From a virus, in the IMG/VR virus record IMGVR_UViG_3300028821_000038, positions 98,315 through 162,314 of that record: a stretch of 64,000 nucleotides of DNA, one strand, 5' to 3'. Below, piece after piece: positions 3 through 63,994 of this stretch; position 1 is the stretch's first letter, and each line of letters opens with the position of its first letter. The translations under genes were made by a program, and so were the position numbers. The notes under the pieces are model-generated. The model searched no databases. It was not told the origin of the DNA and saw nothing but the letters and a program-made list of their open reading frames with translations.

Positions 3-167
3 CTTGCAATAGAAGAAGAATGCGAGGAAATTGTATTTGAGTTGGAGGAAGGTGATTTATCCCTTAATAAAGCAGGGACAGATAGGTTTGAGTATAGAAT
101 CTACGAAAGGTTTAAAAAAAGAGTAGATGAGTACACAAAAAAACTTCAAGAAAAGGAAATAAAATGA
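3..167 (+). CDS. C-terminal end of an unidentified protein (partial)
   Basis: The frame is open from the first bases of the window to a TGA at 165-167, giving 54 residues. They are strongly acidic at first and end in a Lys/Glu-rich helix (…EYTKKLQEKEIK). The start lies outside the window. The stop overlaps the ATG of the next, decayed frame (ATGA), as is usual in this genome. I do not recognise the family; it could be a small early protein. Confidence 0.6.
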   Translation, partial: LAIEEECEEIVFELEEGDLSLNKAGTDRFEYRIYERFKKRVDEYTKKLQEKEIK

Positions 168-30648: not shown

Positions 30649-33600
30649 CTTTTACAGATCTACAGCCCATATATTCGACCGGCCAGGAATTTACGCTAAA
30701 AGTATATAGTGTATATGGCTTGTTGTCTGTTTTTTCCGAGGTGTCTGTAAATAAGTTCAATAATGTGCAGGGTATATCTAGTGGAGATATCTTTTTCTCT
30801 ATAGAGGCATTTGAGACAACCCGAGGTCGATTAATGAGTCTCAATGATTCCTCTTATGATTTTATAGAGATAGAGACTGTCAGTTATGCTGAAAATATGA
30901 CGCTTAGTGATTATGTATCCCCGGTATACCTTGTAAATTACAAAGAGAGCACAAGATACACTATATTTAATACCGATTCAAAGACCATCTTCTCTTTAGA
31001 TAGGGTGCTTTTTTATAGTAAAAAGGTGAAGATATCGCCCACAGGCTATACTATAGCTACTATTTTCAGGTTCTCGAAAAAGAAGCTAATCGATACAGTA
31101 TTCCCCCATATCTTACATAAGGCTGTAAAAGCTAAAAAGGTATTTCTTAGTCAGTTGTTTTATGTCGGAGTTCCATATGTTAGGAAAGTGTATTTAGAGC
31201 CATCATATACCCATATAAACCCATACATTAAGAAGCAACAGACATCCCATAATTTCATAGATGTGATTTCTCTTCCATTGATTGAGATGTCCAGTACCGC
31301 ATGGCTGTCAAAGTGTGTTGTTACCGATGAGGAGTCCTTGTTTATTAGGGAGCCTGTGGGGTGTACCAGTTGTGACTTGGATTCTGTCATATTTCCATTG
31401 GTGTCGTTTGATTATGAGTTGTCTGGCGACAGCTTATATGAATTTGCAGAGTTTAAGGTTGGGGGCGAGAACCTGTCGGATGCACTATATTATTTTACAT
31501 TCAAGACAGACCCTATATCCTTGGATGACTATATATCGGAAGAGGTAGTTGTTGTACCGATTGTATACGGAAATCCATACTACACCATAGTGGAATTACG
31601 GGATTATTATGGCCCAGAAGGAATATATGATTTTGGGTATATCAATGGAGGCGAGCACTCCTCTCTCTTGGATTCCATATATGAGCTCGCTACTTTTATA
31701 GACCATAAAGATATTGGGCCGGTATACAGTATAAACGTCTCGATGTATGTTTCGGAGGCTAAATATAGCGAGTTAAAAGGAATGACAGTTCCATTATTAG
31801 AGCTTCATGGCGATTTTGAGGGGATTAAACCTATATCTCTGAAGACTCTATACTCACCAAATGCTATTTTTGATTATAGGCAATATCCATACAAAAGAAC
31901 AGACGGTTTGTATCGCGATATTTTCGTTGATAAACCGGATTTTGTGGTACACCCTGCTACCCCATGGATAAACAATGAAACCGGACTCAGGAAAATAGGC
32001 GATACCAAATATGAGGGATATATCTCTTTCGATTCTGGTATTAGAGTAGTGCAGGTAGAACCCACAAAATATACAGTAATTCTGATGGATTGGGAGCCGG
32101 CGTTCATTATGCCTACCCCGTATTCACTAGACAGGAAGCATTATCCTATACTATGGCTTAAAAATTTATTGACTGACGATTTTATGATTATAGCGCTGGG
32201 AACATATGATGCAAACTTCGTACATGTCCATTTTGGCGACTATATGGATGGATATTCCGAGAAATACAGATTCAATGTAGAAGGCGAGGAATTGATAGAG
32301 GCGGCCAAATATAGTGGAGTCCATGCCATTATAGATAGCCGCAAATTAGAGCGCGCAATAAACTACACAACATCCAATAGATACCTCAAAGCCGCCAAGA
32401 TAATGTATGATGTTCGAAACGGCCTTATCTATAGCGATAGTGTTATTAAAGATGCGATGAGATATCTGCGCTCCATGGGGGAATACCTAACGGCCTTTTA
32501 TTATATTGATGAAAATGGAAACCGGATATATGCTAACGCCAATCCGTTGATTCTAAGGAGAATTATAGATAACAAAACCGCGGCACTCGATGGAAGAGAT
32601 GTGTTTTCGCCACCAACATTATACACAGCAACAGCTTTTGGCGAGACGGTGGAATTTTACTATCAGGAGCTAAGTGATATTCCGTATGGCGGAGTAAGAG
32701 AAGACTATGTGACCGATATTTCTTTCTGCAAGTTAGCTCCATCAATGTACCTAATGTCTAATGTCGTTCATGGTGTATCTGTTTCAGACTCTAAATATAC
32801 TAAGGTGTTGACTTTGTGCAATATGCACAATATGTGTGGCGCAAAACACCTTATAGGGAATCAGTACGATGGTATATTGAGTGTTGCCACAATGAGCATT
32901 TCCCGCCCACTTGAAATATCAGAGAGAAGTCCTGTGGTATGCCATGATTGCACTGGTGTATATCGCCCCACGGAGCCATATACTCTTGAATATATTGAGG
33001 AGTATATTTCGACAGCAGGATTTGAAGTAGAGATACAAAACTACGACTTGAATAGCGTGTATCTCGATGGAACTATCACGGTAAGCACTGGAGCTTATCT
33101 CTCAGATGTATATGTTAACGGAATGATGTATATAGGGCTCAAGAATCTGGAGGATTCCATATATAACCTTGCGCCGATAGTTGTAGCTATGCCAGATAAA
33201 ATTCTGAGTGACACATACAGCTCTTTCAATATACACCTCCATTTGAATCTAAAGAGAGATATGGTTGGCGGATATTATTCTGTTATGTTGCCTGCTGGAG
33301 TAGATATCGGCTTTATGAATATGGCCGACATAAAGACTGAGTATGAAGTTATATGGATGAAGATGTTCTTCCCTGCCATCTACGATAAAGCCGACATAAC
33401 CGAGCCTATCTACAGTGTTCATATTACAGAACAAGACTTCTCTGTCCAAATGGTGATGCCATATAGCTATGTGGATGAACATATTACGACGGAGGCGATG
33501 CCAGCGAAGAGTTCTACGCCAATGATAAAAGAAAAGAAAGCAGGAAAAGATGGTGCTGGTGGCGGAGATAGGGTAGTTAAGAAGCCAGAAGACAAGGTAT

Positions 33601-34112
33601 GCGGACCAGAAAGGACGATGACATACCTTGATTATGTTGGTTTTGATTATATGTTCGCGGATAATCTAAATAGACTATATGGAATGTATCCAAAATCAGC
33701 AAAGGAGATATTATTCTCTGGGGTGGCTCAAGTTGCAACAAACACTTCTTTCTCGAAAGGAAGATTGCTGTCAGAATCAGATCTCCTGAAGAGAAGCATT
33801 GTGGATTCGACGATATACTATATAGACAACCTTGGAGACGCTGTGGATTGGAAAATAGAAGAGTTTTCTCTTGATATATCTGATTTTGAGGGGATGGCTC
33901 TATCGGCAGAAGATTATGATGCAATAGATTCTGTTTTCCGAGACTCGATGAAGTTTGTCTTGAATACGATGGGAGAAGAAGGACTACAAAAAGAGATAAC
34001 CGAAGAGGTCAATATGTTCCCTCAGTATCCAGATCGTCCAATCCCAGACAATTCACTATCCACTACAGTTAAGGTACACCAATTCTTCATAGTGGAGGAA
34101 GAAAATGTATAA
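30645..34112 (+). CDS. Very large virion protein, 1155 aa
   Basis: It overlaps the preceding gene (ATGA). Mostly beta-rich with no recognisable enzymatic motif. A Lys/Gly-rich linker (EKKAGKDGAGGGDRVVKK, about 963-980) separates the long N-terminal part from a more helical C-terminal domain. Two clustered CxxC pairs near 750-790 (LCNMHNMCG, VCHDC) might bind metal. It is the largest protein in the window; a baseplate or fibre scaffold is possible. Confidence 0.6.
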   Translation: MTFTDLQPIYSTGQEFTLKVYSVYGLLSVFSEVSVNKFNNVQGISSGDIFFSIEAFETTRGRLMSLNDSSYDFIEIETVSYAENMTLSDYVSPVYLVNYKESTRYTIFNTDSKTIFSLDRVLFYSKKVKISPTGYTIATIFRFSKKKLIDTVFPHILHKAVKAKKVFLSQLFYVGVPYVRKVYLEPSYTHINPYIKKQQTSHNFIDVISLPLIEMSSTAWLSKCVVTDEESLFIREPVGCTSCDLDSVIFPLVSFDYELSGDSLYEFAEFKVGGENLSDALYYFTFKTDPISLDDYISEEVVVVPIVYGNPYYTIVELRDYYGPEGIYDFGYINGGEHSSLLDSIYELATFIDHKDIGPVYSINVSMYVSEAKYSELKGMTVPLLELHGDFEGIKPISLKTLYSPNAIFDYRQYPYKRTDGLYRDIFVDKPDFVVHPATPWINNETGLRKIGDTKYEGYISFDSGIRVVQVEPTKYTVILMDWEPAFIMPTPYSLDRKHYPILWLKNLLTDDFMIIALGTYDANFVHVHFGDYMDGYSEKYRFNVEGEELIEAAKYSGVHAIIDSRKLERAINYTTSNRYLKAAKIMYDVRNGLIYSDSVIKDAMRYLRSMGEYLTAFYYIDENGNRIYANANPLILRRIIDNKTAALDGRDVFSPPTLYTATAFGETVEFYYQELSDIPYGGVREDYVTDISFCKLAPSMYLMSNVVHGVSVSDSKYTKVLTLCNMHNMCGAKHLIGNQYDGILSVATMSISRPLEISERSPVVCHDCTGVYRPTEPYTLEYIEEYISTAGFEVEIQNYDLNSVYLDGTITVSTGAYLSDVYVNGMMYIGLKNLEDSIYNLAPIVVAMPDKILSDTYSSFNIHLHLNLKRDMVGGYYSVMLPAGVDIGFMNMADIKTEYEVIWMKMFFPAIYDKADITEPIYSVHITEQDFSVQMVMPYSYVDEHITTEAMPAKSSTPMIKEKKAGKDGAGGGDRVVKKPEDKVCGPERTMTYLDYVGFDYMFADNLNRLYGMYPKSAKEILFSGVAQVATNTSFSKGRLLSESDLLKRSIVDSTIYYIDNLGDAVDWKIEEFSLDISDFEGMALSAEDYDAIDSVFRDSMKFVLNTMGEEGLQKEITEEVNMFPQYPDRPIPDNSLSTTVKVHQFFIVEEENV

Positions 34113-34902
34113 GATAAAGGGTGGTAAGCTCAAGATATTTTCGAAGTATATCGAGATACAGCCGGGGCAACATACTGTATATGTCGATATGGACAGTGGT
34201 AGTGTTTCGTATACAGGCGAAGATGGATATGTTCCTGTGGTCGAATATCGTCTCGATGAGTTCGATGGCACTTTTGAAATAGTTAATGACTATGTAGGAG
34301 AACTTGGGGAGCAGGGCGTCCGCCCTCCTACAGAGGGGCTTACCTGGATGGATGGCAGGTTGATATCTAAGGGACCACTTAGTGATGGAAATACAAATAT
34401 CGCAGATGTAAATGTCGCGCTGGATGGGTTTGCTTTTGCTTTCAATTACACCTCTATTGCTCACACTGCACAAGCATTAAAGCCGTACAGGTGGACGGGA
34501 GGGCGAGTATGCTCTTCTCATGGGATGTTTGACCCAGGCGCATCGAATACATCGTACACCGCGATGCCCGGCGCTGGCTCTTGCGGTAGGGGGTTTGCTG
34601 ATACTTATGGAAGCGGAGTTGGTCAAATGGCAGATACAGCTGCTCTGCTTGGAGCGCCTATTTCTGGTGCTAATTCTGCCGCGAGGGCGTCGGACTGGGA
34701 ATATGTAGGGAATAACTTTAGTATAGTGTTCTCTTATAGGACTTTTAGAAAATATGTGAGCTTCGCTAAGGGAATGGCTGGTGTCTTTGAATGCTCATTG
34801 GGGCCTTTTGGCGGGAAAGAGTCTGATGCCGAGCCAGATGGAGATGTTGGTAATATTAGATTAAAATCGTTTCAAATGTCTATGTACAATTTGTCGCAAT
34901 AA
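34105..34902 (+). CDS. Hypothetical virion protein, 265 aa
   Basis: It overlaps the previous gene by eight bases. The N-terminal 75 residues are beta-rich and acidic. The centre (about 115-225) is rich in Gly, Ala and Ser (PGASNTSYTAMPGAGSCGRG) and resembles a glycine-rich fibre tip. The C-terminus has no special motif. Function unknown; structural by context. Confidence 0.6.
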   Translation: MYKIKGGKLKIFSKYIEIQPGQHTVYVDMDSGSVSYTGEDGYVPVVEYRLDEFDGTFEIVNDYVGELGEQGVRPPTEGLTWMDGRLISKGPLSDGNTNIADVNVALDGFAFAFNYTSIAHTAQALKPYRWTGGRVCSSHGMFDPGASNTSYTAMPGAGSCGRGFADTYGSGVGQMADTAALLGAPISGANSAARASDWEYVGNNFSIVFSYRTFRKYVSFAKGMAGVFECSLGPFGGKESDAEPDGDVGNIRLKSFQMSMYNLSQ

Positions 34903-37256: not shown

Positions 37257-38202
37257 GGCGACATATAGTTCTCCCGATATAGAGGTTTCTCAAGCAGGAA
37301 ACCTCTCATGCATTATAAATGTTGATTTTGGGGAGGCTTTACAAAAATACGGCTCTATGGCAATGTTTTTTGTATCGGTAGATGACCATATTATTGATAC
37401 AGAATACCGTGAGTTGGCTGCAGAGTTTTCTTTAGATGCCGAATATGTGTTCAATAATGAGGATGTGCAAAATGTGCACTATCTGAAATATGTAAATTTT
37501 GTACCGTGCATAGAGGAGTTTGGATGTCGAAATATAGAGCATGAGCCTGATCCTTTTGGGGATGAGAGTGGCTTATTGCTGATTACCGGCAACAATACAT
37601 GCGAAGATGCCTGCAAAAATTATACTGTACATGAATACATAGAAGGGTATGCCGACGGTATATATAATCAGGCGATAGATTTAGGAAGTGTCAAGAATAC
37701 AAATCGATACCTCAAGATATACAATCTTGAATTGTTTGAGGGGATGACTTTTTCTATGTGGTTCAATTTGCCTGATGGGGCATCTAGTGATGTTGAGTAT
37801 TTTACATTCTTTTCACTAGCTGATTACTTTAAGGTGAAACATCTTGCGCTTCAGTATATTCCGTCTAGTGAAATGATTCGTATTTTTGTAAACGGGACAG
37901 CATATAGCGGAAAGGTAGGGAGTATTCCAGAGGGGGAGTGGCATTTTATCTCCCTTGTTATAGATAACACAGTGGCAACAGTATTCATAAATAACTCCAG
38001 GTTCGAGATTCCCATAAAGCAGATGTCATTGAATTACTCCAAAAACAATGTATTTATTGTGGCACAGGAACAGGATAGGGTTGGTGGATATTTCGATGAA
38101 AACCAATGTTTGTTTGGCAAAATAGACCAGATTAGAATATTTAAAAAGCCCTTAAGTTGTGATAGAATTGCAATGATTAGGGAAGAGAAAATAAAATATT
38201 AG
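37246..38202 (+). CDS. LamG-like tail protein, 318 aa
   Basis: It overlaps the end of the 36216 gene by 11 bases. The N-terminal 60 residues are a beta module with MAMFFVSVDD. A LamG-like fold occupies about 145-315 (FSMWFNLPDGAS…MIRIFVNGT…EWHFISLVIDN…KIDQIRIFKKPLS). A glycan-binding role is plausible. Last phage gene before the insertion element. Confidence 0.65.
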   Translation: MLTKATYSSPDIEVSQAGNLSCIINVDFGEALQKYGSMAMFFVSVDDHIIDTEYRELAAEFSLDAEYVFNNEDVQNVHYLKYVNFVPCIEEFGCRNIEHEPDPFGDESGLLLITGNNTCEDACKNYTVHEYIEGYADGIYNQAIDLGSVKNTNRYLKIYNLELFEGMTFSMWFNLPDGASSDVEYFTFFSLADYFKVKHLALQYIPSSEMIRIFVNGTAYSGKVGSIPEGEWHFISLVIDNTVATVFINNSRFEIPIKQMSLNYSKNNVFIVAQEQDRVGGYFDENQCLFGKIDQIRIFKKPLSCDRIAMIREEKIKY

Positions 38203-38205
38203 AGG

Positions 38206-38247
38206 TTGACAACAAGTAGCAAATTTGTTATACTTCTTTAACAAATG
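38206..38247 (+). promoter_or_regulatory. tnpA promoter with overlapping inverted repeat
   Basis: TTGACA (38206-38211) and TATACT (38229-38234) are spaced by 17 bp, close to the ideal sigma70 promoter. The inverted repeat ATTTGTTA/TAACAAAT spans the -10 region and could be an operator. The MerR-type N-terminus of TnpA makes self-repression possible, but that is inference. Confidence 0.65.
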
Positions 38248-38263
38248 TTAATAGGAGTAACAA

Positions 38264-38851
38264 ATGTACGTACCTTCCAGGGTGGCGGCCCGTCGCCTGG
38301 GAGTGCATCCAAATACTTTAAGGAGGTGGGCAGATGAAGGCAAGATCGAAGCAATCAGAACAGAATCCGGCCAGCGTCGCTATGATGTGGACGCCTACCT
38401 CGGGAAGCACTCCCGCCTCCGCACTGTCTGCTATTGCCGCGTCAGTAGTTATAAGCAAAAAGACGACCTCGAACGGCAGGTCGAGTTCATGCGAAAGCGA
38501 TACCCCGAAGCGGAAATTGTCAAGGACGTCGCCTCGGGGCTCAACTTCCGCCGCAAAGGGCTTAAAGCCATATTGGAATCCGCGCTTGGGGGAGATCGCA
38601 TCGAGCTTGTGGTTGCCCACCGAGACCGACTTGCACGCTTCGGCTTCGACCTTATTGAATGGATTATCGAACGCAGCGGTGGCCGGGTCGTGGTTCTGGA
38701 CAAGACTGAGCTTTCCCCGGAACAGGAACTCACAAAAGACCTGCTCAGTATCCTACACGTCTTCTCTGCCCGGCTACACGGACTTAGAAGTTACAAAGAC
38801 CAGGTTAAACAGGCTCTATCCGACAAAGGAGCAACGAAAGATTCTGCTTGA
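38264..38851 (+). CDS. tnpA: IS607-family serine recombinase TnpA
   Basis: 195 residues, normal for the family. Residues 1-45 are a MerR-like helix-turn-helix (PSRVAARRLGVHPNTLRRWADEGKI). The catalytic domain follows, with the nucleophile in CYCRVSSYKQK (Ser61) and the family arginines in RDRLARFGFDLIEWI. It cuts and rejoins DNA through a covalent serine intermediate. GGAGTAA lies upstream. The TnpB homology region begins within its last 60 bases in another frame. The protein looks intact. Confidence 0.9.
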   Translation: MYVPSRVAARRLGVHPNTLRRWADEGKIEAIRTESGQRRYDVDAYLGKHSRLRTVCYCRVSSYKQKDDLERQVEFMRKRYPEAEIVKDVASGLNFRRKGLKAILESALGGDRIELVVAHRDRLARFGFDLIEWIIERSGGRVVVLDKTELSPEQELTKDLLSILHVFSARLHGLRSYKDQVKQALSDKGATKDSA

Positions 38852-39920
38852 ATGGATCGGGGCGTCCCGCTTCGTTTATAATCTTACTGTCGAAAAGCTG
38901 CAAGCCCATAGCGGGCCTACTCCCAATTGGATGGCGTTCTGGAAAAACGAGGTCGCCCCGGAGCTTCCGGAGTGGTGCGATCCGATTTCATTCCAGGTCA
39001 AAAAGATCGCCGTCCGGGATGCCATCAATGCGTTGAAAGAGGGGAAAAAGCGAGTCAAAAAAGGCATTATTCCGTACTTCAAGCTCCACTTCCGCAGCAG
39101 AAAGAGCCCCGTGCAATCCTGCTTTATTCCTTCAAGCGCCATCAAAGAATCGGGAATCTATCCCAGGGTTTCCGGCAAGGGCCTTCGGTACGCCGAGCCT
39201 TTGCCGGAGTCCCCTATGGACTCCCGCCTGATCTTCCGTGGTGGAAAATTCTACCTTGCCTTACCGAGAAAAGAAGTATGCGCCGTAGCCGAGAACCAAG
39301 GGCGGCGTATCGTCTCTATCGACCCGGGCATCCGTAGTTTTCACACCTTCTACTCCCCAATCGGAGTGGCCGGAAGCATCGGGCGTGACGACTTTTCCCG
39401 TATCGTGCGCCTTGCTCAGCATCTTGACGATCTGCTCTCCAGGACTTCCAAAGCAGGCAAGCAGCGTCGCCGGAGAATGTACCGGGCTGCGGATCGTATG
39501 CGCGAAAAGATTCGTAACCTGATCGACGAGCTACACCACAAGACCGCCCGGTTTTACGTCGATAATTTTGATGTGATTCTGCTGCCGGCCTTCGAGACCT
39601 CGGAGATGGCGCGAAAAGCCACTCGGAAGATTCGCAGCAAGTCGGTCCGGTCTATGATGACCTTCGCGCATTACCGCTTCGCCCAGTTTTTGAAGCATAA
39701 AGCGTTCGAGACCGGAAAAGTCGTTCTAACCGTTACCGAAGAGTACACCTCCAAAACGAATCCATATACTGGAGAGCTGATGACTATCGGTTCCCGCCGC
39801 AGGGTTCGGATCGGTGACGATTGGGTTGATAGAGACCACTTAGGCGCATTCGGGATTTTCCTGAAAGCTTTGGGAGATTTCCCCGACCACTTTCGGGTGG
39901 TCGCAGTTAACGAAAGTTAA
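38679..39920 (+). CDS. tnpB: TnpB RNA-guided nuclease, zinc-ribbon residues lost
   Basis: TnpB homology starts near 38790 (TKTRLNRLYPTKEQRKILLEW). The only in-frame standard initiator upstream is GTG 38679, inside tnpA, so the true start is uncertain. RuvC residues are visible: Asp in SIDPGIRSF, Glu in LLPAFETSEMA, Asp in WVDRDHLGAFG. TnpB normally has a CPxCG…CxxC zinc ribbon between the last two. Here the first half reads EYTSKTNPYTGEL and the second lacks cysteines. Known TnpB proteins are guided by an omega RNA to cut DNA. Activity without the ribbon is an open question. Confidence 0.85.
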   Translation: MAGSWFWTRLSFPRNRNSQKTCSVSYTSSLPGYTDLEVTKTRLNRLYPTKEQRKILLEWIGASRFVYNLTVEKLQAHSGPTPNWMAFWKNEVAPELPEWCDPISFQVKKIAVRDAINALKEGKKRVKKGIIPYFKLHFRSRKSPVQSCFIPSSAIKESGIYPRVSGKGLRYAEPLPESPMDSRLIFRGGKFYLALPRKEVCAVAENQGRRIVSIDPGIRSFHTFYSPIGVAGSIGRDDFSRIVRLAQHLDDLLSRTSKAGKQRRRRMYRAADRMREKIRNLIDELHHKTARFYVDNFDVILLPAFETSEMARKATRKIRSKSVRSMMTFAHYRFAQFLKHKAFETGKVVLTVTEEYTSKTNPYTGELMTIGSRRRVRIGDDWVDRDHLGAFGIFLKALGDFPDHFRVVAVNES

Positions 39921-39925
39921 GAAAA
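39770..39925 (+). ncRNA. Candidate omega RNA region of TnpB
   Basis: In TnpB elements the guide RNA overlaps the 3' end of tnpB and ends at the element boundary. Here two clean hairpins sit at the end: CGACCAC/GTGGTCG (39884-39890/39897-39903), and TTAAC-GAAA-GTTAA (39907-39920), which contains the stop codon. The following AAGAAAAAAGGATCGGACTG would then be flank or guide. Boundaries are inferred. Confidence 0.4.
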
Positions 39926-39940
39926 AAGGATCGGACTGAT

Positions 39941-40675
39941 ATGACGGGAGCTGCAAAAGATATAATTAGAATTTCATACAGGCTTGATACACTAAAGCAA
40001 TTCATAGGAAACATCAAGAAAGAGTCATATTTGGCCGCTTTTAGTGATGAGAATTTTTCCGGATTTGTGTTGTACTATGTTGCAGATAAATATTTCGGTG
40101 ATATATATGAGCTTGAGATAGAAACGATAAACATCACAATGGAAAAATACCCCAAAAACAGAGACAAGCTAAAAGCTCTTGTGTCTACTATGCAAAGCGA
40201 TGCTGTATGGACTAATGCTTTTGCTTTTTCTACTGCGGTATCTGCCTTTAATAATCTGGATATAGATCCAACCCTGATCCCTTCGAGAAAACCCGATGAG
40301 TTAGCGTGGGGAATGGCTAATATAGCAGGTCTTGAAGGTGCCATAGGTATGCCATTCAAAACAAAGGTACTTGGTACAATCGCGGCATCCTTAATGGATG
40401 ATGGATGGACTGCACCTCCGCTATTCTTGATGTTCAAAAATGTGAGTGATTACTTTGACAATGATGAGTATATTGAAAATATAAAGCAGACCATAGGCCA
40501 TCTAACCCTAAAGGATATAGTATCCATGAATGATTTTTCAGGACTAGGGATAGATGGAAGGCCAGATCTTAAAAATTATTTAGCCAGAACACAGGAGTAC
40601 GCACATGGGATATTGAAGAAATATAACAAGTTGCAATTTGATTGGGAAACTGCAATTAGTGGCGGCGTTGCATAA
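39941..40675 (+). CDS. Terminase-adjacent virion/packaging protein, 244 aa
   Basis: ATG 39941, with AAAAGGA about 12 bases upstream. A mixed helical protein of moderate charge, no enzymatic motif. It lies directly before TerL, where small terminase subunits often sit. It lacks a clear N-terminal DNA-binding helix-turn-helix, so the small-terminase role is only possible. The upstream flank was changed by the IS607 insertion. Confidence 0.6.
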   Translation: MTGAAKDIIRISYRLDTLKQFIGNIKKESYLAAFSDENFSGFVLYYVADKYFGDIYELEIETINITMEKYPKNRDKLKALVSTMQSDAVWTNAFAFSTAVSAFNNLDIDPTLIPSRKPDELAWGMANIAGLEGAIGMPFKTKVLGTIAASLMDDGWTAPPLFLMFKNVSDYFDNDEYIENIKQTIGHLTLKDIVSMNDFSGLGIDGRPDLKNYLARTQEYAHGILKKYNKLQFDWETAISGGVA

Positions 40676-45299: not shown

Positions 45300-45695
45300 A
45301 TGAAGAATATAGAAATTGTTTGCGGGTACCGCTCGTTCGGACACGAAGATGTCTATGCTTCTGATCCTGCTGTGGTTGTTGTAGAGGGTGATATTATAGA
45401 GCCCTCTGGTGCAAAAGTAACACTGTCTGGCTCCACGGTTCACAAAGAGTGCGGCATTGTTATTGAAAGAAACTATATCAATGGCCAACCCAAAGATAGT
45501 GGGAAGATCCCGGTATATGTTTCCAACTTTGTCGTTAGAACATCAAGATATACTCCCGCTACCTATGCTCCAAATGATCCTATAACTGTTACCGATGGAC
45601 TTCCCGCTAAAGGGACTGTTGGCACGGATGCAATATGGGGTTATGTTGTTGCTGTAAATCAAGATGGAACACTCGATATTAGAGTGAATTACTAA
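45300..45695 (+). CDS. Probable head decoration protein, 131 aa
   Basis: AAAGGA precedes ATG 45300. A compact beta-rich protein (IVCGYRSFGHEDVYASDPAVVVVEGD…GTLDIRVNY) without cysteine motif. It lies 14 bp before the major capsid gene, in its own promoter unit, the usual place for a capsid-stabilising or decoration protein. The fold is inferred from size and position. Confidence 0.6.
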   Translation: MKNIEIVCGYRSFGHEDVYASDPAVVVVEGDIIEPSGAKVTLSGSTVHKECGIVIERNYINGQPKDSGKIPVYVSNFVVRTSRYTPATYAPNDPITVTDGLPAKGTVGTDAIWGYVVAVNQDGTLDIRVNY

Positions 45696-61113: not shown

Positions 61114-61130
61114 ATCATATATATATACCA
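61114..61130 (-). promoter_or_regulatory. 17-base GGTATATATATATGAT promoter element
   Basis: Minus-strand TGGTATATATATATGAT, identical to 63543-63559, lies 21 bases before the TTG start of the methyltransferase. It is probably a phage-specific promoter or its -10 region. Confidence 0.45.
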
Positions 61131-61335: not shown

Positions 61336-61551
61336 TTATTGCGCAGGTGGTTCTGCGGGTTTTAGCGCCTTTTTCTTGGCGCAGTACCTCTTTGCCCACT
61401 CCTCCATATGGACACCGTTGATGTGGCCCATTAGGCCACCTACTGTTTTTTTCTCTGCTAGTCTACCATCTTGGTAGACTAGTAGTGTTGCTATAAAGTG
61501 GCCCGATGGGCCACCAGTTATATTTGTCCATTCATACGTCAGGCTTGCCAT
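61336..61551 (-). CDS. Hypothetical protein, 71 aa, hairpin-rich coding sequence
   Basis: AAGGAGG precedes ATG 61551 (MASLTYEWTNITGGPSGHFIATLLVY…). Beta-rich N-terminal half, Lys/Ala-rich C-terminus. Inside the gene lie three perfect hairpins: GTGGCCC/GGGCCAC (61498/61508), CTAGTCTACC/GGTAGACTAG (61458/61473) and GTGGCC/GGCCAC (61423/61434). The 5' leader is the conserved structured element at 61571-61660. Function unknown. Confidence 0.6.
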   Translation of the reverse strand: MASLTYEWTNITGGPSGHFIATLLVYQDGRLAEKKTVGGLMGHINGVHMEEWAKRYCAKKKALKPAEPPAQ

Positions 61552-61570
61552 TTTTTCCTCCTTTTTATTG

Positions 61571-61660
61571 GAAGCCCCGGCATGGGGCACCCATAATTAA
61601 GCGGGTGTTAGCTGACATTTTAGTCAGCACATATCTTTCTTGTCATGTTTATCTACCAGC
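61571..61660 (-). promoter_or_regulatory. Conserved three-hairpin 5' leader, copy A
   Basis: Minus-strand order: TGGTAGATAAACATGA (weak form of the promoter element), GCTGAC-TAAAAT-GTCAGC, CACCC-GCTTAATTAT-GGGTG, GCCCC-ATGCC-GGGGC, then the AAGGAGG of the 61336 gene. Copy B (63475-63559) has the same three stems with different bases that keep pairing. A cis-acting RNA element is likely. Confidence 0.6.
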
Positions 61661-61856
61661 TTTTTTTTAAAAAGTTCACCCTTTTCGTCCTTGAGAAAAA
61701 TGGGGGCTAGAGAAAAGAAAAAGCTTTTTTGAGGCCCCTGATTGAGGCACTCTTATTAAGTGGGGCCGACATTTCAGCCGGCGCATAAAGAGCAGCATGT
61801 TGCACTCCAAAAAAGAGGCATTTGTATTGCGCCCCTCTTTTGGCGCTTTGGTGGGG
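61661..61856 (-). other. Non-coding stretch with terminator and leader copy C
   Basis: No gene seen. It holds terminator-like pairs for the 61857 gene (GGGGC/GCCCC around 61706-61738, followed by ATTTTT on the minus strand; CCAAAAAAGAGG/CCTCTTTTGG near 61807-61841), and a partial third copy of the leader at 61744-61790 (GCCGGC-TGAAAT-GTCGGC and CACT-TAATAAG-AGTG). Confidence 0.5.
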
Positions 61857-62234
61857 TTATTTTTTAAACCGAACAGCAGTCCCCACCTTTACTCCTTCGG
61901 CATATAGCACTTTGCCGTCGGAGCCAAACACCTTCCTGCCGGGGGACACGACATCATCCCTGTCTTTTAGGTGCTCGGGGCACTCTGGATGTCCTTGAAA
62001 TCTATGGAGAGCATCCAGAATGAATAGGGGAACTATGTATTTGATCCCCTTTTTTTTGGGTGGGAGATGGAGTATGTCTTGGTAAATCTGAACATACTCC
62101 ACAACTTCGCCTTGTCCTCCCACCGCCATATTTTCTGATACAAGCAGTGGCTTCTGCTTGTTGGCGGGGAAGGTAACCACCCCACTTTTCCCTTTTATCT
62201 TTATGGGGTGGTCGGTGAGGTTGATGTATTTCAC
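61857..62234 (-). CDS. Conserved phage protein with NLTDHPI opening, 125 aa
   Basis: AGGAGG lies about 11 bases before ATG 62234. MKYINLTDHPIKIK is a variant of the INLTPH opening found in many small phage proteins of unknown function, usually followed by a short beta domain. The stretch GGTGAG (62214-62219) within the first codons can pair with CTCACC (62237-62242) at the ribosome site and could limit translation. Several 8-9-bp perfect hairpins lie in the coding part. Confidence 0.7.
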   Translation of the reverse strand: MKYINLTDHPIKIKGKSGVVTFPANKQKPLLVSENMAVGGQGEVVEYVQIYQDILHLPPKKKGIKYIVPLFILDALHRFQGHPECPEHLKDRDDVVSPGRKVFGSDGKVLYAEGVKVGTAVRFKK

Positions 62235-62286
62235 TTCTCACCTCCTTTTTGTTTTTTTATTTTTTTTGAAATTACGCATAGCATGC

Positions 62287-62745
62287 TTACATTCTTATTT
62301 TGACGCCGATTAATTCCTCTATCTTGTTATAGAGGACCTCCCAGAAATGTTTTTTATCTGGATGTTGAGCACGACGTAATACAACAAGCTCCGCATATTC
62401 AAGCGGAAGCTTGTCAATTATCCATATTTCATGTGTCTCCGTATATTTGCGACCGTAATTGTCGGTCGCTTCCTCTTCTGTTTCCGTTTTTACCCTAGGA
62501 AGGGCTGCTAAATATTTGGCAGCCTCCTTTCGCTGCTTCAGAAGTCTTTCAGCAGCACCACTTTGCTCCATCAGAGACTTATATAGTGTTTCATTTATTT
62601 CTCCGCCAGCGCCAGTGGTAAGGTCGTCGATATTGATGTTCTGGGGAATTGGCCTCAGTTCCATTCCCCAAGCATTCTCTTTAATCTTCCTTATCATTTC
62701 CGCATAAGCTGCCGCTTTATACGGATTGTATCCAGAGCCAAACAT
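62287..62745 (-). CDS. Hypothetical protein, 152 aa
   Basis: AAAAGGAG precedes ATG 62745 (MFGSGYNPYKAAAYAEMIRK). Helical and charged; LRRAQHPDKKHFWEVLYNKI near the end. No known motif. Perfect inverted repeats occur in the coding sequence (TCCTCTAT/ATAGAGGA at 62315/62329; GCGACCG/CGGTCGC at 62449/62463). Confidence 0.6.
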   Translation of the reverse strand: MFGSGYNPYKAAAYAEMIRKIKENAWGMELRPIPQNINIDDLTTGAGGEINETLYKSLMEQSGAAERLLKQRKEAAKYLAALPRVKTETEEEATDNYGRKYTETHEIWIIDKLPLEYAELVVLRRAQHPDKKHFWEVLYNKIEELIGVKIRM

Positions 62746-62756
62746 TTTTTCTCCTT

Positions 62757-63452
62757 TTAATCAGGCTTTATTTCAAATAAATTGAACTCATTTGCCATTT
62801 TGAATTGCTGCAGAAGTCGTTTAAATTTCTTTTCGCTTCTTACTACAGCTGCTTCAATTTTTTGAATTCCTTCTTCGAACTTAGTCCCGTTCTCTAGGCA
62901 CTCGCGAATAATTTCGTCAGCGCCATAGTAGTGCATATACACTTTCTCGCTACGGTTAGCTAATTCCGTAGCTTTTCCTAGTGCTTCTTTGTATGCTTTC
63001 AATTCATCACCATTAAGCGTCTCTTCTTTTATTTTCTTTGTCAACAATATTTCATCGTTGACCATGAATAGCACTTCATCCCACCCTTGTCTTTTGAAGT
63101 GCTCTTTGATTATATCTTTATGCTCCCACACGGAGCTTTTATGCTCCTGTGGGATAATTATATACTTTTTTCTAATAACGCTTTTTATTGGCGCTCCCTC
63201 AAGTGGGAAGCGCCATTGTTCAATATTTTTTTCTTCGTCCCTAAATTGCTCCAACAAAACAATATCTATTGGAGCTACTTTTGCCCATTTATGGACATAT
63301 AGTCCCTTTGGGCCCTCCCTGATGTCATCTTCATAAACGAAGACGACATCAAGGCCCTCATTCCAGTAGTGTTTTATAAACACTACATTTTTCCCTCTCT
63401 TCCCTAGGGCTCCACCCCTAGGGAACTCTTTAAAAATTTTTAGTTTTATCAT
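62757..63452 (-). CDS. Hypothetical protein, 231 aa, very hairpin-rich coding sequence
   Basis: AAAGGAGG precedes ATG 63452. Begins MIKLKIFKEFPRGGALGKRGKNV; the C-terminal 100 residues are helical and charged. The coding strand has at least ten strong inverted repeats, for example TTCCCTAGGG/CCCTAGGGAA (63400/63416), GTAGTGTTT/AAACACTAC (63366/63378), a 16-bp tiered stem (63310-63357), and AGCACTTCA/TGAAGTGCT (63070/63095). Leader copy B precedes it. Function unknown. Confidence 0.6.
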   Translation of the reverse strand: MIKLKIFKEFPRGGALGKRGKNVVFIKHYWNEGLDVVFVYEDDIREGPKGLYVHKWAKVAPIDIVLLEQFRDEEKNIEQWRFPLEGAPIKSVIRKKYIIIPQEHKSSVWEHKDIIKEHFKRQGWDEVLFMVNDEILLTKKIKEETLNGDELKAYKEALGKATELANRSEKVYMHYYGADEIIRECLENGTKFEEGIQKIEAAVVRSEKKFKRLLQQFKMANEFNLFEIKPD

Positions 63453-63474
63453 TTTTTCCTCCTTTCATATAGAA

Positions 63475-63559
63475 GAGTCCATGACGTGGGCACCCGTAAT
63501 TAATCGGGTGTTGGCCAACATTTCAGTTAGCGCATTCTTACAATCATATATATATACCA
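63475..63559 (-). promoter_or_regulatory. Conserved three-hairpin 5' leader, copy B, with promoter element
   Basis: Minus-strand order: TGGTATATATATATGAT (63543-63559), GCTAAC-TGAAAT-GTTGGC, CACCCG-ATTAATTA-CGGGTG, CCA-CGTCA-TGG, then AAAGGAGG of the 62757 gene. Stems match copy A position by position with compensating or wobble changes, while loops stay nearly the same. Confidence 0.6.
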
Positions 63560-63712
63560 GCTTTTTAAATTAAGAAAATTTACTTTTTTCGTCCTTATAA
63601 AAATAAGGGGGGGAGCTATTATGAATTTAAAAAATAATAGATATGTAAAAAAGACTTCCCTAAAATCCATTCGGCCTTGGCGAGGCCGTTGGCAGAATGT
63701 AGCCTAAAAAAA

Positions 63713-63738
63713 AATAGGGGCCTCCTACCCCCCCTATT
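63713..63738 (-). terminator. Intrinsic terminator of the 63740 gene
   Basis: On the minus strand AATAGGGG and CCCCTATT (8-bp perfect stem, loop 10) are followed by TTTTTTT, directly after the stop. The stretch on to leader B (63560-63712) has no gene; it holds CGGCCT/AGGCCG (63672/63683). Confidence 0.75.
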
Positions 63739-63739
63739 C

Positions 63740-63994
63740 CTAGAGAGATATGTCAAAGATCTCTTTGACGTATCTCTCCATTGAAGCCCGTTCAGGGGCG
63801 ACAGCAAAAAACTTGCCCGCATGAACGAACTTCATGTAGTCGCGGGGCTCTAGACCGCGACCAACTCTCTCGAAAGATCCAGGCTCTGCTGGAGCCACCT
63901 GGATCTTCCAGTCTCCCGCCTTATCATCTTCCCAGACGACCGCCTCTACGTCTGGGTTGATGACACCGTTGAATACTTTCTGCCAGTGCCTCAT
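63740..63994 (-). CDS. Hypothetical protein, 84 aa
   Basis: Start ATG 63994, near the window edge, so an earlier start cannot be excluded. MRHWQKVFNGVINPDVEAVVWEDDKAGDWKI… then GRGLEPRDYMKFVHAGKFF, ending YVKEIFDISL. Beta-rich, no known motif. The coding part carries a 16-bp stem (63743-63758/63763-63778), AAGATCCAGG/CCTGGATCTT (63874/63898), CCCAGACG/CGTCTGGG (63931/63949) and GTCGCGG/CCGCGAC (63839/63855). Confidence 0.6.
   Translation of the reverse strand: MRHWQKVFNGVINPDVEAVVWEDDKAGDWKIQVAPAEPGSFERVGRGLEPRDYMKFVHAGKFFAVAPERASMERYVKEIFDISL

Follow-up and report, generated by a model that had tools for sequence, protein, structure and literature searches.

A repeated three-hairpin RNA element in the 5' leaders of accessory genes of a phage

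The phage genome analyzed here carries a new family of RNA leaders, so far confined to this one genome, in which an element of about 62 nt folds into three adjoining hairpins. The window, that is the whole stretch of DNA that was analyzed, comprises 64,000 nucleotides and corresponds to bases 98315-162314 of an IMG/VR virus record of 162314 bases; coordinates below are those of the window unless given as record positions. Three copies lie within it, all on the minus strand, and the three hairpins can be folded in each of them. Copy A (61571-61632; hairpins 1, 2 and 3 at 61611-61628, 61588-61607 and 61575-61587) reads AUGUGCUGACUAAAAUGUCAGCUAACACCCGCUUAAUUAUGGGUGCCCCAUGCCGGGGC, copy B (63474-63535; hairpins at 63514-63531, 63491-63510 and 63478-63490) reads AUGCGCUAACUGAAAUGUUGGCCAACACCCGAUUAAUUACGGGUGCCCACGUCAUGGAC, and copy C (61731-61786) reads AUGCGCCGGCUGAAAUGUCGGCCCCACUUAAUAAGAGUGCCUCAAUCAGGGGC, with hairpin 1 at 61765-61782, a shortened hairpin 2 at 61748-61762 and hairpin 3 at 61735-61747. 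The shortening of hairpin 2 in C is symmetrical, from six pairs to four. The initial annotation had described these three copies, and every stem, loop and spacing that it quoted was found in the sequence; its count, however, was too low, as two further copies (D and E) exist outside the window. It was also right about a third hairpin in A and B but not in treating this as a trait of those two copies, since C forms hairpin 3 as well, as GCCUC-AAUCA-GGGGC (hairpin 3 of B contains one C.A mismatch).

The same three hairpins were recovered by RNAalifold from a MAFFT alignment of A, B and C that was based on sequence only, so that the structure was not imposed. In single-sequence folding the hairpins are stable, with z of about -3; when C is folded singly, its minimum-energy fold retains hairpin 1 and a form of hairpin 3 and loses the short hairpin 2. 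A covariance model built from A and B only and run against the whole 162-kb record returned these two copies together with C (E 1.3e-7) and D (E 6.6e-7), with no further match up to an E of 10. Folding of these leaders is unusual for this phage: among 143 gene starts ranked by the z-score of the upstream fold, D is 2nd, A 4th and B 12th. Outside this family, a z of about -5 was also obtained for the upstream 90 nt at record 143614 (+), before a 131-aa gene (window 45300-45695), and, similar to the leaders studied here, for those of the gene start at record 5448 (-).

Over four copies, 94.7% of cells are paired and four pairs are changed on both sides. Shuffling the columns produced at least as many doubly changed pairs in 4 of 500 trials, and when the structure was slid by 1-3 columns, pairing was 17.9-41.5% with 0-1 such pairs; all of these numbers lean towards the predicted structure, as the model served to fit the four-copy alignment and A and B supplied the structure. 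We also applied a placement test, in which the same substitutions are re-placed at random within the stems. With all three hairpins included, the change from A to B yielded p = 0.010; with hairpins 1 and 3 the p values were 0.04 (A to B), 0.008 (B to A), 0.02 (C to B) and 0.19 (B to C). The value of 1.0 for A to C reflects the kinds of substitution that separate these two copies in hairpins 1 and 3, which preserve pairing at whatever position they are placed. Since the copies all come from one genome, shared ancestry accounts for much of their similarity and the covariation is thin. The RNA fold itself is well supported, while the support that it draws from the covariation statistic alone appears modest. 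Selected RNA structure in 5' leaders, as originally proposed, agrees with what we observed: changed stem bases still pair, the loops are near-invariant, and the element is preceded by a promoter and followed by a ribosome site.

In A, B and C the loops stay nearly the same while the stem bases differ, and within hairpin 1 variation affects 1 of 6 loop columns versus 5 of 12 stem columns. This pattern speaks for the loops being what is recognized, in the simplest case by a protein. A coding explanation would be a short leader peptide initiated at an AUG in the hairpin-1 loop (MSANTRLIMGAPCRGFQ in A, MLANTRLITGAHVMDSSI in B), whose frame, read by hand, is open for 17-21 codons in all four copies and whose stop falls directly before the main Shine-Dalgarno sequence in A and B. 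This AUG is not preceded by a Shine-Dalgarno sequence, however, the peptides diverge after about 11 residues (in C after three), and pairing accounts for the nucleotide changes, so that we consider translation of such a peptide very improbable.

In A and B the element is part of a longer minus-strand arrangement. An intrinsic terminator found by terminator scan, GGGGGTAGGAGGCCCCT with a T run (63707-63732), stands after the upstream gene and before cassette B, which then consists of the upstream box AAGGACGAAA (63587-63596), an exact copy of the promoter motif GGTATATATATATG (63545-63558), the hairpins and, judged from sequence, the Shine-Dalgarno sequence AAAGGAGG (63458-63465) of gene 62757-63452. 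Cassette A repeats the box AAGGACGAAA (61683-61692), followed by the promoter-like stretch GCTGGTAGATAAACATGAC (61642-61660) and by the Shine-Dalgarno sequence AAGGAGG (61557-61563) of gene 61336-61551. In both, the Shine-Dalgarno sequence and start codon follow directly downstream of the leader; the position of A and B between promoter and ribosome site is as the initial annotation had it, with A the weaker fit to the promoter (three mismatches in the 14-base motif). Common to A, B and E are, in this order, the upstream box AAGGACGAAAA, AAAAAGCTGGTA with a promoter-like stretch, and the hairpins. AAGGACGAAAA was considered as a component of the RNA and ruled out, as in A and B it precedes the promoter. 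Copy C sits in the gap before cassette A and has no recognizable promoter or ribosome site of its own. The terminator sequence GGGGTAGGAGGCCCC occurs at only two sites in the record, before B and at record 101-115 (-) before E.

The motif GGTATATATATATG has six exact copies in the record, versus 0.02 expected, and none with one mismatch. The copies are at record 65865, 79260, 85082, 91858, 159430 and 161859, mostly directly upstream of genes, the last two corresponding to window 61114-61129 and 63543-63558. A reversed-pattern control was uninformative because several of the sites also hold the reversed motif, and neither exact nor one-mismatch copies were found in the available fragments of six relatives. 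The phage encodes a multisubunit RNA polymerase, in which beta domains and the N-terminal half of beta' are joined in a single protein of 1440 aa (record 70349-74668, +) and the C part of beta' is separate, with 583 aa (record 32653-34401, +); homologues occur in IMG/VR relatives at 50-61% identity. We infer that GGTATATATATATG is read by this enzyme.

Hairpin 1 starts 13-15 nt past the promoter motif, which together with the stability of the hairpins (z about -3) would suit a passive mRNA stabilizer, in which 5'-proximal hairpins block 5'-end-dependent decay and have no specific partner. Some other messages of the GGTATATATATATG class may also begin with a hairpin, the one at record 91858 in particular (p 0.035). 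However, the other leaders of this class, taken together, show no significant structure, and a general rule of 5'-terminal hairpins for all GGTATATATATATG messages, suggestive by eye, was dropped as the test was not significant. Known 5' stabilizers tolerate few unpaired nucleotides before the hairpin, and here there would be several, their number depending on the start site; moreover, a passive block has no need for loops that are more conserved than stems. Stabilization without a partner is thus a secondary possibility in our assessment, and an improbable one.

Control through access to the ribosome site was examined in A and B. The Shine-Dalgarno sequence has a probability of pairing with upstream bases of 0.07 in A (rank 68 of 143) and 0.61 in B (rank 13 of 143), and because this differs so between the two copies, sequestration is not a conserved feature; as a general feature it is unsupported, as the Shine-Dalgarno sequence of A is not stably sequestered. 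Attenuation is unlikely because no U-run follows hairpin 3. The riboswitch-like role that had been offered as one option, and likewise an attenuator, found no support, considering also that the downstream genes have no common recognized function and that Rfam gave no match, either for the window at gathering threshold or, in a permissive search up to an E of 10, overlapping hairpins 1-3. A hammerhead ribozyme, hinted at by GGACGAAA, was ruled out by eye, as the CUGANGA core is absent.

The two copies outside the window differ in how they are placed. Copy D (record 742-790, +), matched by the covariance model, is partial, retaining hairpin 1 and the 5' half of hairpin 2, and is inverted relative to its gene, lying in the leader of a 193-aa minus-strand gene (record 124-705). 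Read on the strand of that gene it folds better still (z -5.9), into a long hairpin at record 706-785, and is complementary to the leaders of A and B, with computed duplexes of -68 and -57 kcal/mol. Copy E (record 1-93, -) is cut off: the first 93 bases of the record are an exact repeat of cassette A (window 61622-61714) and end inside hairpin 1. The assembly seems to have been broken at this 93-bp repeat, which suggests a circular or permuted genome. In that case E would probably lead an 84-aa orphan gene (63740-63994, -) that lies at the other end of the record.

The inversion of D and the inverted repeat CCTTAT/ATAAGG at its flanks are of the kind expected if the element acted as DNA, as palindromic operators or as a recombination or replication site, and its folding as RNA were incidental. 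Hairpins 1 and 2 are also palindromic as DNA, and the copies sit in an accessory region that varies. Binding of DNA by a dimeric protein would nevertheless be expected to conserve the arms and leave the spacer free to change, whereas here it is the spacers (the loops) that are conserved and the arms that differ, partly via G-U pairs; A and B also hold a fixed position between promoter and ribosome site. We therefore regard a DNA-level element as unlikely.

The size and position of the element resemble those of the put RNA of phage HK022, which is about 70 nt long and made of stem-loops, putL lying just downstream of an early promoter, and which targets the zinc-binding domain of the host polymerase beta' subunit (PMC9378689). 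In both phages compact stem-loops are found near the starts of phage messages, in more than one copy per genome. The HK022 RNA needs no protein factor to suppress termination and pausing. A put-like nascent RNA would make the transcribing polymerase read through downstream terminators, and the cassettes here are indeed separated by terminators. Yet three hairpins (in A, B and C) stand against two stems in put, and since every cassette is supplied with a promoter behind the terminator, read-through is unneeded; the polymerase context also differs, as these messages may come from the phage enzyme, and the likeness here is one of size and position. Taken together, put-like read-through has a low probability. 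A composite version, in which the leader is a nascent signal for the phage RNA polymerase (antitermination or processivity) and D acts as an antisense RNA in trans, seems to us less probable still.

The genes behind the leaders are unrelated. Copy B leads an orphan gene of 231 aa (62757-63452, -), followed in its operon by genes of 152 aa (62287-62745, -) and 125 aa (61857-62234, -), and A leads an orphan gene of 71 aa (61336-61551, -). Genes behind A, B and probably E had no match in PHROG at E 0.001, and a Pfam scan of the three genes of the B operon gave sub-threshold matches only. As the same leader stands before unrelated orphan genes, what these sites have in common appears to be the leader. 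For the accessory region around these genes no counterpart was seen in the related records compared, and no relatives of the 231-aa protein, a 546-aa protein and a helicase-like 724-aa protein were found in viral contigs. The phage also encodes a large terminase, with phrog_675 as its best PHROG match and only a marginal match to the T4-type Terminase_6N; its identity is 55-74% to the closest IMG/VR relatives, 33-34% to more distant ones and below 30% to known phages. Separately, G+C content rises to 0.50 in window 38001-40000, over an open frame at 38334-39920, versus about 0.40 elsewhere.

The covariance-model search, of the kind suggested by the initial annotation, recovered C and D in the phage record but nothing in 13 related virus records. 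These records are fragments, so that other parts of those phages may carry the element and its absence there weighs little. A three-mismatch pattern match in one related record received no support from the covariance model. Comparison with known phages by blastn gave no match in near mode and only chance-level pieces in distant mode, and exact-pattern searches of viral contigs and bacterial genomes gave either none or chance matches inside coding sequence.

Among known systems, the arrangement recalls the PeSL (promoter early stem-loop) cassettes of T4-like phages (Arbiol 2010; Comeau 2014), which are reportedly composite promoter-terminator motifs, repeated as promoter/stem-loop units before unrelated accessory genes and assumed to have a role in gene shuffling. 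Similarly, the units of A, B and E, set between unrelated genes, have the box, the promoter region and the leader in common, those of E and B also the terminator. The differences are that here a structured leader follows the promoter, that GGTATATATATATG, judged from sequence, is not of the T4 early (host sigma-70) type, and that this phage is not T4-like by its terminase and has its own polymerase. Translational operators of T4 (genes 43 and 32) are likewise structured RNAs upstream of a start codon, that of gene 43 being a hairpin with a conserved loop recognized by a protein (PMC3014915). Each of these operators extends to or into the ribosome site of a single gene under autoregulation, whereas here several unrelated genes are led and the Shine-Dalgarno sequence lies outside the hairpins; the loop conservation is compatible with a protein-bound operator, the binder being putative. 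Early promoters of the jumbo phages AR9 and phiKZ, read by their own RNA polymerase, have a high AT content, are strongly conserved and do not tolerate deviation (PMC5312081, PMC7598289). GGTATATATATATG, known here from its sequence, is also AT-rich, strongly conserved and upstream of genes, but its sequence differs, and the likeness concerns the promoter and not the RNA element.

A regulator-binding leader fits these observations best, because the loops are conserved while the stems vary. Our preferred reading, held tentatively and at somewhat under even chances, is a leader RNA that acts in cis and co-regulates accessory genes through recognition of its conserved loops. The cassette of box, promoter, leader and Shine-Dalgarno sequence (with a terminator common to E and B) would have been duplicated before unrelated accessory genes, and the leader RNA would be transcribed from the putative cassette promoters. 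A putative phage or host RNA-binding factor would then bind the conserved loops of hairpins 1 and 2 (URAAAU and UUAAUUA) and set the translation or decay of these messages jointly. The evidence against this reading is that every copy stems from a single genome, that no relative turned up in the 13 related records or in the pattern searches, that C lacks a promoter and gene of its own, that D is inverted and that the promoter of A is off the motif at three positions. If the element were a stabilizer only, the leader would still be a usable module, but an ordinary one. If it acts as a regulator-binding leader, a post-transcriptional control element is copied along with promoters, and genes that the phage has newly acquired could be brought under shared control in a single step, the phage apparently transcribing with its own polymerase.
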